Assembly (NCBI RefSeq): GCF_030623445.1
Contig: NZ_CP130613.1
Span: 992,001-1,056,000, forward strand
Length of the DNA stretch: 64,000 nt
Direction: 5' to 3'
DNA from: Pseudogemmatithrix spongiicola
Lineage (GTDB): Bacteria > Gemmatimonadota > Gemmatimonadetes > Gemmatimonadales > Gemmatimonadaceae
The notes under the pieces are model-generated. The model ran no database searches. It saw nothing but the letters and a program-made list of their open reading frames with translations, and had not been told where the DNA came from. Below are positions 17,743 through 32,218 of this stretch, one piece after another (the first letter of the stretch is position 1; every line of letters starts with the position of its first letter). Made by a program: the position numbers and the translations under genes.

Positions 17743-19407
17743 ATGGACGTCGAACTCGTCAGCATCGGCACCGAGCTGCTCCTCGGCTACACCATCGACA
17801 CCAACAGCGCGTTCTTCGCGCGTGAGGCCGCCGCGCAAGGCATTCGCGTCGTGCACCGCGCCACGGTCGGCGATGGACCGGAGGAGATTGCCGCAGCCGT
17901 CCGCGATGCGCTCGCGCGCACTGGCGCCGTGATCACCAGCGGGGGGCTCGGGCCCACGGCCGACGACCTCACGAAGCCGAGCATCGCCGAGCTCTTCGGG
18001 CGTGGCATGACGCTCGACGAATCGATCCTCGAGGACCTCAAGCAACGCTGGGCGAAGCGCGGCTGGCCGGGGGAGTTGCCGGCCGCCAACCGCAATCAGG
18101 CGCTGATTCCCGCCGGCGCCGAGATCATCCGCAACGATCACGGCTCGGCCCCGGGCATCTGGCTCGAGGATGAGCAGGGGCGTTGGTGCGCGATGTTGCC
18201 CGGCGTGCCGCGCGAGTTCCGCGGCATGGCCCGTGAGCAGCTGATTCCGCGCCTCGTGGCGCGGCGCGGCGGTGCCGTCGGGCTCGTGGTGCGCTCGCGA
18301 ACCCTGCGCACCACCGGCATCGCCGAGAGCAAGCTCGCCGACGAGATGGGCGAGCTCGCCAAGGATCCGCTGGGCACGCGGCTCGCGTACCTGCCCGGCT
18401 GGGAAGGCGTGGACCTGCGCGTGAGCGTCTGGAACGAGCCCGCCGACCGAGCGGCGCAGTTGTTGGACGACGCCGAACGCGCGATCCGTGCAAAGGTCGG
18501 CACCTGGATCTACGGCGTGGATGACGACGACCTCGCGGCGCTGGTCCTGCAGCTGCTGCGCGAGCGCTCGCACCGGATTGCCGTCGCCGAGAGCTGCACG
18601 GGCGGTATGCTCGGCATGCGGTTGACGGCGGTGCCGGGGTCCAGCGACGTTGTGGACGGCGGCACGATTGCGTATGCGAACCACGTGAAGGTCCGCGAGC
18701 TCGGAGTCCGGGAGGCGACCTTGCAGGCACACGGTGCGGTGAGCGAAGAGACGGCGCGCGAGATGGCCAGCGGCGTTCGCACGCGCTTCGGCGTGGAGGT
18801 CGGGGTGGGCATCACCGGGGTCGCCGGGCCGGGCGGAGGCACGCCGGACAAGCCGGTGGGCACGGTGTGCATCGCGGCGGATGTCGGCGGGCAGCTGCGT
18901 TCTGCGCGCACCACGATGGTCGGGGACCGCCATGAGGTGCGGCAGCGCTCCACGCAGGCGGCGCTCAATCTCGTGCGGCGCATGTTGCTGGTGCTGGCGC
19001 TGTGCGTCGCACCGGCCGCCTGCGCCTCGTCCGGTCGCGCATCGGCCGGGAGTGCCGCAAGCCCCGCTGTGGAGGCGAACCGTGTCTACACCGTCGCGGA
19101 GGTCACGCGGCAGGCGGAGGCGCGCTTTGGGCAGAATGCCTTGCGGTACCCGCCGGAGCTACGCATCCAAGGGCTGATCGGGCGCGTCGAGGCCGAGTTC
19201 ATCGTCAACGCGCGTGGGCGCATTGAGCCGGAGTCCTTCGTGGTACTCTCGAGCACGCATGCCGATTTCACGCAGGAAGTGAAAGACGCGATTCCCACGC
19301 TGGAGTTCTTGCCGGCGCGCGTCGGTCGCACACCGGTGCGGGTGAGGATGCGGCTGGGCTTCGATTTCAAGCTCAGTGAGTTCGAGGGGGCGCGGCGCCC
19401 GGAGTGA
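17743..19407 (+). CDS. cinA: CinA fused in frame to a TonB-C lipoprotein-like domain
   Basis: The first 413 residues are a standard CinA: an MoaB-like domain (VSIGTELLLGYTIDTN, TSGGLGPTADDLT), then a C-terminal PncC-type nicotinamide-nucleotide amidase domain (VAESCTGGMLGMRL, GITGVAGPGGGTPDKPVGTV). CinA normally stops near QAALNLVRRML. Here the frame continues with a lipoprotein-signal-like stretch (MLLVLALCVAPAACASS, starting at Met414, ATG 18982) and a TonB C-terminal domain (YPPELRIQGLIGRVEAEF). No stop lies between. Either one fusion protein or internal initiation at 18982 giving a 141-residue lipoprotein; no ribosome site is evident there. Confidence 0.85.
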   Translation: MDVELVSIGTELLLGYTIDTNSAFFAREAAAQGIRVVHRATVGDGPEEIAAAVRDALARTGAVITSGGLGPTADDLTKPSIAELFGRGMTLDESILEDLKQRWAKRGWPGELPAANRNQALIPAGAEIIRNDHGSAPGIWLEDEQGRWCAMLPGVPREFRGMAREQLIPRLVARRGGAVGLVVRSRTLRTTGIAESKLADEMGELAKDPLGTRLAYLPGWEGVDLRVSVWNEPADRAAQLLDDAERAIRAKVGTWIYGVDDDDLAALVLQLLRERSHRIAVAESCTGGMLGMRLTAVPGSSDVVDGGTIAYANHVKVRELGVREATLQAHGAVSEETAREMASGVRTRFGVEVGVGITGVAGPGGGTPDKPVGTVCIAADVGGQLRSARTTMVGDRHEVRQRSTQAALNLVRRMLLVLALCVAPAACASSGRASAGSAASPAVEANRVYTVAEVTRQAEARFGQNALRYPPELRIQGLIGRVEAEFIVNARGRIEPESFVVLSSTHADFTQEVKDAIPTLEFLPARVGRTPVRVRMRLGFDFKLSEFEGARRPE

Positions 19408-19505
19408 CGGCGCCCGTACGCTCGGGGGCCCGCCGAAACGTCCGTCCGCGCCTGCCGTAGGGAGGCCATGCGCCGCCGGTATCTGCCGATGCGGCAAGCA
19501 TTTGC

Positions 19506-19520
19506 TGGCACGGCGGTTGC
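19506..19520 (+). promoter_or_regulatory. Sigma-54-type promoter upstream of grpE
   Basis: TGGCACG-GCGG-TTGC matches the sigma-54 (RpoN) consensus, with GG at 19507-19508 and GC at 19519-19520 separated by exactly ten bases. It lies 34 bases before the grpE ATG in an otherwise empty 146-base gap, correctly oriented. No CIRCE or heat-shock sigma element was recognised. An activator binding site was not identified. Confidence 0.6.
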
Positions 19521-19553
19521 CCCCATGTCGGGCAAACGGCGAACTTTCCTCCC

Positions 19554-20123
19554 ATGACTGACCACAGCACTTCCGATTTCGAGCAGTCGGCGCCCGCGCC
19601 TGATGCAGCGGCGCCAGGTGAAGCGACGGCAGAGGCCACTGCAGCTTCCGACGCCCCGACGAGCGATCCGCTCGCCGAAGCCGAGCGCGTCCTGGCGGAG
19701 CAGAAGGACAAGTATCTGCGGCTCTACGCGGAGTACGACAACTTCCGCAAGCGCGCCGTCCGCGACCGTCAGGACGCCGAGAAGATGGGCATGGGCGCGG
19801 TCATGAAGGGCCTGCTCGAGACGCTCGACGACCTTGGCCGCGTGGCGCACATGACGCCGGAGGGCGCGGATGCCAAGAGCGTGCTCGAGGGCATCGCGAT
19901 GGTCGAGAAGAAGCTGCTCAAGTCGCTGGCCGGGCACGGGCTCGAGGTCGTGGATCCCCTGAATGCGCCGTTCGATCCCGCGCTGCACGAGGCCATCACG
20001 ACCGCTCCCGCGGCGAGTGCCGACGAAGACCACACGGTCGCCGTCGTCTACCAGGTGGGCTACGTCCTCAACGGCACCCTGCTGCGTCCGGCGCGCGTCG
20101 TCGTGCGGCAGTGGAACGGGTGA
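19554..20123 (+). CDS. grpE: Nucleotide exchange factor GrpE
   Basis: Exchange factor of the DnaK chaperone, 189 residues. An acidic Ala/Glu-rich N-terminal tail of about 40 residues is followed by the long dimer helix (AEQKDKYLRLYAEYDNFRKR) and the C-terminal beta domain with the signature HGLEVVDPLNAPFDPALHEAI and LLRPARVVV. Length is normal. The stop overlaps the dnaJ start (TGATG). A sigma-54-like promoter sits just upstream. Confidence 0.95.
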   Translation: MTDHSTSDFEQSAPAPDAAAPGEATAEATAASDAPTSDPLAEAERVLAEQKDKYLRLYAEYDNFRKRAVRDRQDAEKMGMGAVMKGLLETLDDLGRVAHMTPEGADAKSVLEGIAMVEKKLLKSLAGHGLEVVDPLNAPFDPALHEAITTAPAASADEDHTVAVVYQVGYVLNGTLLRPARVVVRQWNG

Positions 20124-31463: not shown

Positions 31464-31519
31464 GGGTGGAGGCTAGATATTCGACACCGGAAGCGCCATT
31501 GTGCGTAGGGAGTCCAGCA

Positions 31520-32218
31520 ATGCGCCGTCCCCTCATCCGCCCCCTGATCGCTCCACCGTCCGGCAGTCCGGTCGGGGCGCTCGTGAGCGCCCTCACGCAT
31601 GTGCTGGTTGGCGTCGCGATCGTGGGGGGGCCGATCGCCGGCAAGGCGGTCCTCGACTCCTGGGACGAGCTGCCCGAGGGCCTGCGCTTTCTCGTGCCGC
31701 CGCCCAAGGCCCCTCCCACGATGGAACCCGCCCTGAACTACGCGCCTGGGGCGGGTGACGGTGGCACCTCGACAGCGACCGTGGAGCGCGACGACGGACA
31801 GCGCCGCGCCGGTGCCCGAGCGGCGCCGGCCAACGCGGGCGTCGACGCACCGGTCCCGACGCTCGACGCGGCGAGCGAGGCGGCCGCGATGAGCGCGATG
31901 CTCGCGACCTCCTATCAGCTACTCGAAGTCGACTCGGCCGCCACGCGCGATCCATCGAGCGCGGCGCCATTGTATCCGCCGGACCTCGAGACCCGCGGCA
32001 TCGAAGGCCACGTCATCATCCGCTTCGTGGTGGATTCGACCGGGGTCGTCGACATGCGCACGATCCTCACCGTCGAGGCCACGCACGCGGCCTTTGACCG
32101 TGCCGTCCGCGACGCGCTTCCGCTCATGCGCTTCCGTCCCGCCAAGGTCGGGAACAAACCGGTGCGCCAGCTCGCTGAACAACTGTTCCGCTTCGAGATC
32201 CCGCGCACCGTCCCGTAG
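31520..32218 (+). CDS. TonB-C-domain protein
   Basis: A 232-residue protein with an N-terminal membrane helix (about 18-38), a Pro/Ala-rich linker and a C-terminal TonB-like domain (APLYPPDLETRGIEGHVIIRFVVDSTG, RFRPAKVGNKPVR). The linker lacks long X-Pro repeats. TonB proteins transmit energy to outer-membrane receptors, but ExbB/ExbD are not nearby, so it may be a stand-alone member. ATG 31520 follows AGGGAG; the frame extends to 31466 without support. The DinB-like gene follows after eight bases. Confidence 0.78.
   Translation: MRRPLIRPLIAPPSGSPVGALVSALTHVLVGVAIVGGPIAGKAVLDSWDELPEGLRFLVPPPKAPPTMEPALNYAPGAGDGGTSTATVERDDGQRRAGARAAPANAGVDAPVPTLDAASEAAAMSAMLATSYQLLEVDSAATRDPSSAAPLYPPDLETRGIEGHVIIRFVVDSTGVVDMRTILTVEATHAAFDRAVRDALPLMRFRPAKVGNKPVRQLAEQLFRFEIPRTVP

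Follow-up and report, generated by a model that had tools for sequence, protein, structure and literature searches.

We identified an uninterrupted open reading frame (17743-19407, + strand) in Pseudogemmatithrix spongiicola that encodes a 554-residue protein, in which no stop codon separates an N-terminal CinA part from a C-terminal TonB_C part. Judging from the sequences of this genome and its relatives, this looks like a real in-frame gene fusion, recent and specific to one lineage (one genome). We give an even chance to the reading that this recent, lineage-specific fusion yields one membrane-tethered protein, composed of cytoplasmic CinA, an internal signal-anchor and a periplasmic TonB_C domain. 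Among the readings offered by a preliminary description of this DNA, a true membrane-anchored CinA was the best fit; the single product, the membrane topology, the periplasmic TonB_C and any benefit are what we infer.

The fused reading frame and its layout

Coordinates refer to the window, the whole 64,000-nucleotide stretch of DNA analysed, and its features at this locus are listed in Table 1. The source genome consists of one contig of 3,257,781 bp, and the frame is known from one assembly. P. spongiicola 318T is a cultured type strain of Gemmatimonadota isolated from a freshwater sponge (PMC11271474), and strain 138 (CP130612), another isolate with a sequenced genome, shares more than 99.8% ANI with it. 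Translation of the frame reproduced the coordinates, the frame and the position of Met414 (ATG 18982) given in the preliminary description. Its claim that CinA reads without a stop into TonB_C was likewise borne out, with both domains full by profile.

After the CinA end (...AALNLVRR), the sequence continues directly as MLLVLALCVAPAACASSGRASAG... and then enters TonB_C. The junction-spanning stretch reads ...NLVRRMLLVLALCVAP..., and the anchor-like segment immediately after CinA residue 413 is MLLVLALCVAPAAC. Chance alone does not account for the open frame, as indicated by the coding-type GC3, the curated domain match and the TonB-like modelled fold of the extension.

Table 1. Features of the fused cinA locus and its surroundings (window coordinates)
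Feature	Position	Strand	Basis
cinA proper, residues 1-413	17743..18981	+	Pfam/NCBIfam profiles
MoCF/COG1058 domain (residues 5-171), KH domain (185-258), NMN deamidase PncC domain (262-413)		+	Pfam profiles
In-frame GTG (Val411), candidate internal start giving MRRMLLVLALCVAPAAC	18973..18975	+	Sequence, anti-SD energy
Internal signal-like segment VRRMLLVLALCVAPAACA, residues 411-428	18973..19026	+	Sequence, hydropathy scan, model
Left breakpoint, CGGCGC/ATG	18981..18982	+	blastn against the G002 locus stops at that base
In-frame ATG (Met414), candidate internal start without Shine-Dalgarno sequence	18982..18984	+	Anti-SD energy
Linker, residues 429-465	19027..19137	+	Sequence, model
TonB_C domain, residues 466-544	19138..19374	+	PF03544 and TIGR01352 above cut-off, Foldseek
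C-terminal tail and TGA stop, common to both parts	19375..19407	+	Sequence
Conserved non-coding block 5' of grpE, where homology to relatives restarts	19426..19553	+	blastn, 84% identity to the G002 locus
grpE, next gene; cinA-grpE order retained in most relatives	19554..20123	+	ORF, relatives' loci

The CinA part is complete and conserved

CinA is an enzyme of NAD recycling that is widespread and resides in the cytoplasm. The N-terminal part of the 554-residue protein is CinA by every feature tested, and its enzyme activity is predicted. It matched the NCBIfam PRK00549 equivalog over residues 1-416 (model positions 1-412 of 414) with 415.8 bits against a cut-off of 379, and the Pfam MoCF, KH and CinA domains each passed their cut-offs. 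Lys316 and Thr358 align with Lys301 and Thr340 of Thermus thermophilus CinA, the catalytic residues of NMN deamidase (PMC4246079), and Lys316 is invariant across 17 sequences.

No second CinA copy was found in the genome, leaving the fused CinA as the sole copy; this ruled out a spare copy that would have freed the fused one. The dN/dS of CinA against the nearest relative (G002) was about 0.07, a whole-branch value that does not date selection relative to the fusion. Unique changes numbered 13 versus 11 with G005 as the outgroup, indicating no rate acceleration. These substitution values show purifying selection on CinA and, because of them, we see no sign of its relaxation. In the AlphaFold model of all 554 residues, CinA is folded and its last helix (396-421) extends into the hydrophobic segment, followed by a low-confidence linker and by TonB_C as a separate domain.

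The extension carries a TonB_C domain without a close relative

The PF03544 profile was matched over its full length and scored 30.1 bits in the fusion; the extension by itself scored 33.2 bits (cut-off 24.6), and TIGR01352 was also above its cut-off. The GC3 of the extension is 0.837, compared with 0.86-0.94 in the neighbouring genes. A single-sequence AlphaFold model of the extension was modest (pLDDT 58), and its top 16 Foldseek matches in the PDB were TonB-type C-terminal domains (E 2.4e-3 to 8e-2).

In the energy transducer TonB, the N-terminal anchor contains a conserved His that works with ExbB/ExbD, and the spacer is rich in Pro. Here, MLLVLALCVAPAAC contains no His and the linker (~37 residues), which is Ala/Ser/Gly-rich at its start, has one proline. 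Thus, the 554-residue protein is not an energy-transducing TonB.

No orthologue of the extension was found in 288 genomes of the order or 395 genomes of the phylum Gemmatimonadota, where the best TonB-type proteins were about 40% identical, and a pattern scan of GTDB r220 for an extension-like lipoprotein found none. A tree built from 51 TonB_C domains put the extension on a long branch, with a weak link (0.83) to two distant TonB proteins. Derivation from an M56 peptidase-TonB_C protein was considered and rejected: the layout agrees, but the domain tree places the extension elsewhere.

Other TonB_C proteins were also observed in this genome. A second one is encoded in the window (31466-32218, 250 aa) and has an N-terminal hydrophobic segment. 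In two further proteins (L114 and L116), TonB_C ends stand behind unrelated N-terminal parts, one with a regulatory or plug-like region. In the P. spongiicola genome, TonB_C seems to be a C-terminal module that moves between proteins.

Relatives lack the extension and reveal both breakpoints

The same-genus comparison covered 16 other genomes, and the CinA end was readable in 15. In all 15, the CinA stop lies 1-12 residues beyond the junction point, as in a relative with 91% CinA identity that ends in ...NLLRRALAG before the stop. A genome search found CinA matches in 259 of the 288 genomes of the order. Read-through from CinA into TonB_C was absent from the approximately 150 order-level matches listed, and those among them that aligned well past the usual CinA end contain a stop. 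All 31 named GTDB CinA loci end in a stop, and no TonB_C gene adjoins cinA either in these loci or in the 15 same-genus genomes. Since CinA stops in the relatives and no TonB_C gene lies beside it, the fusion is derived and unique in this sample, and CinA-TonB_C is a new combination of known parts among the genomes examined. The preliminary description had proposed that a stop in every close relative would speak against a fusion. Stops were indeed found in all of them, but because these relatives lack the extension, they do not refute the fusion and instead mark it as derived.

In the nearest relatives (G002 and G005) and in G015, G014 and G016, a spacer and then a gene of ~190-220 aa separate cinA from grpE. 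The G015 gene was the only one tested with Pfam and is Uma2 (PF05685), and three named congeners match this protein at the same site. The cinA-grpE spacer is thus variable: five congeners have the ~190-220 aa gene (loci L002, L003, L004, L005 and L006, with the Uma2 assignment made for L004 only), others have 28-271 bp without a gene, and in the window the site is taken up by the TonB_C extension.

DNA homology to G002 stops exactly between 18981 and 18982 and restarts at about 19426 (blastn), which places the right breakpoint between 19407 and ~19426. A 426-base coding segment occupies the place of the relatives' last cinA codons and stop, the spacer and the Uma2-type gene. Because homology ends and resumes at these points, we propose that a foreign segment coding for the hydrophobic signal or anchor and TonB_C replaced the last 3-4 cinA codons, the stop and the cinA-grpE spacer. 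The swap may have happened in one step, or a deletion may have followed an insertion. Repeats marking an insertion were found at chance level only, and the coincidence of the break with an in-frame ATG could be due to chance or could mark where a captured gene began. The lost stop codon suggested in the preliminary description was not supported: no TonB_C gene lies downstream of cinA in relatives, and homology breaks at the junction. Since a coding segment stands in place of the relatives' cinA end, spacer and Uma2-type gene, point mutation of the stop cannot explain the join.

The non-coding block where homology resumes contains the near-palindrome CTGCCGATGCGGCA as well as GTTGCCCC, a possible heat-shock promoter or regulatory site common to the genus.

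A proposed membrane-tethered CinA

The hydropathy scan revealed residues 414-428 as the sole strong hydrophobic segment of the protein, a run of about 15 residues with RR just before it and Cys427 at its end. In the arrangement that we propose, the 554-residue protein would keep a folded and active CinA in the cytoplasm (activity predicted as NMN deamidase / ADP-ribose pyrophosphatase), and residues 411-428 would serve as an internal signal-anchor of N-in/C-out orientation, comparable to that of ToxR/CadC-type bitopic proteins. TonB_C would then lie in the periplasm, and CinA would be tethered to the inner membrane. According to the positive-inside rule, basic residues favour the cytoplasmic side. 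Because RR precedes the hydrophobic stretch, cytoplasmic CinA and periplasmic TonB_C are favoured. It is doubtful, in our estimate, that the protein goes further and works as a functional membrane-spanning CinA, whose periplasmic TonB_C contacts (e.g. with TonB-dependent receptors or the cell envelope) would position NAD-nucleotide recycling at the inner membrane or regulate it there.

Alternative explanations

The preliminary description also raised nested in-frame genes. In this case, the fused frame would give an extended CinA, and most of the TonB_C product would be an independent protein, secreted or lipidated, that starts at GTG 18973 or ATG 18982; we regard this as possible and rather unlikely. 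The product of the GTG start, MRRMLLVLALCVAPAAC, has a good signal-peptide layout (charged n-region, h-region, Cys or AxA), and a free-standing small secreted TonB_C protein of 133 aa (L067) exists in the family. Based on the 47 putative genes of the 64-kb window, the anti-SD energy at GTG 18973 (-5.8) is near the median, but it is also reached by about one quarter of random sites, and the SD-like stretch lies inside CinA-conserved coding sequence. ATG 18982 has no SD, its energy (-1.8) being weaker than that of ~89% of the window genes. This absence does not exclude internal initiation, because the cinA start itself has no SD. A consensus scan detected no promoter-like site at the junction, and the read-through CinA would still carry the extension. 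With a middling SD at GTG 18973 and none at ATG 18982, support for the nested arrangement is weak. Cleavage of the fused protein at the internal signal, either by LspA after lipidation of Cys427 or by signal peptidase I at an A-x-A site, would produce a membrane-tailed CinA and a periplasmic TonB_C. For a transmembrane helix the hydrophobic run is rather short, and it has more the look of a signal that is cleaved off; therefore, signal-peptide cleavage is a real alternative, which we nevertheless consider unlikely. Cys427 is followed by Ala-Ser-Ser, and two A-x-A sites (APA and ACA) overlap the end of the run. The usual lipobox has the consensus [LVI][ASTVI][GAS]C. Here it reads PAAC, with a Pro at -3 that breaks this pattern, and only a translation start at 18973 or 18982 would make the segment N-terminal. 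Of the 'lipoprotein-like' signal described previously, the Cys after a hydrophobic stretch with RR stands, and the Pro at -3 and the overlapping A-x-A sites count against it. The segment is thus an imperfect lipoprotein signal, and lipidation of Cys427 is putative. Cleavage behind a 413-residue cytoplasmic domain would also be unusual. A literature search on internal lipoprotein signals found nothing with the terms tried.

The extension might also be a neutral accident, with a non-functional tail that is tolerated or degraded and with only CinA of importance. The join is seen in one species only, the extension is a long branch without an orthologue and CinA evolves at a normal rate, all of which would agree with such an accident. 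However, the TonB_C domain is intact, has a coding-type base composition and extends the frame by 141 codons without a stop, and we consider this explanation improbable. An assembly or sequencing error is the origin that we find hardest to credit, since the genome is a single contig and the breakpoint structure requires a segment swap, not a base error. We carried out an exhaustive single-base test of substitutions (18930-19029), deletions (18930-18984) and insertions around the junction. Within CinA, the only codons that a single substitution turned into a stop were 398, 401 and 405; all other stops, from codon 415 onwards, fell in the extension, and there were none in the eight codons preceding the junction. 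After each deletion tested, the CinA frame ran on as far as codon 478. With insertions, it stayed open to codon 495 or ended at codon 398, with one exception: a T inserted before 18967 gave a stop at codon 409 and would remove the conserved NLVRR, five CinA residues. No tested change restored a normal CinA end, which rules out a single-base error and makes a simple sequencing error unlikely.

We therefore return to the single membrane-tethered protein as the preferred reading. The fusion appears to have been caught soon after it arose: relatives still show how the locus looked before the join, which neighbour gene was replaced and where the two breakpoints lie. If there is one product, a soluble metabolic enzyme would have been made into an inner-membrane protein by means of an internal export signal, which suggests a route to new bitopic proteins. 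For the function of CinA in P. spongiicola, a purely cytoplasmic location should not be assumed.

Comparison with known systems

The bifunctional CinA of T. thermophilus (PDB 4CT8/4UOC; PMC4246079) and the CinA of PDB 6MR3 have the same COG1058-KH-PncC order over the full length, including the catalytic Lys and Thr. These structures (chains of 394 and 418 aa) contain no membrane or TonB_C module and end about where the fused CinA runs 141 residues further.

The C-terminal domain of the fusion resembles that of the energy transducer TonB (PF03544) by profile and fold. In contrast to TonB, the fusion lacks the N-terminal TonB anchor, has an anchor without His and no Pro-rich periplasm-spanning linker, and carries a cytoplasmic enzyme. 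The small secreted TonB_C protein L067 consists of a signal peptide followed by TonB_C and is close to the extension in length, but it is encoded by a separate gene, is 32% identical, and has a signal of the signal peptidase I type without the Cys.

Bitopic inner-membrane proteins of the ToxR/CadC type combine a large N-terminal cytoplasmic domain, a single anchor and a periplasmic C-terminal domain. Their likeness to the fusion would be an analogy of topology only, and the fusion has an enzyme where they have a DNA-binding domain.

The M56 (BlaR1-type) peptidase-TonB_C proteins of Gemmatimonadaceae (L033, L037, L041, L064 and L073) have, behind the peptidase domain, the same order of basic residues, a hydrophobic segment that ends near a Cys, and TonB_C. 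Their anchor segments include VRRKALLIGSALLAVVTVVAACAATLDS in L033 and SRRRIALTSAAAVALVATLYACASEP in L041, and M56-TonB_C proteins also occur in same-genus genomes. The internal basic-TM-Cys segment of these five proteins itself resembles a lipoprotein signal (VVAACAATL, LYACTSG, LYACASEP, LALACSLQ, VAFACSVQ). They differ from the fusion in being polytopic peptidases with a longer TM segment, and the TonB_C of the extension groups apart from theirs in the tree. Because the M56 peptidase-TonB_C proteins share this order, it is nothing unusual in the family to find TonB_C behind an internal anchor.
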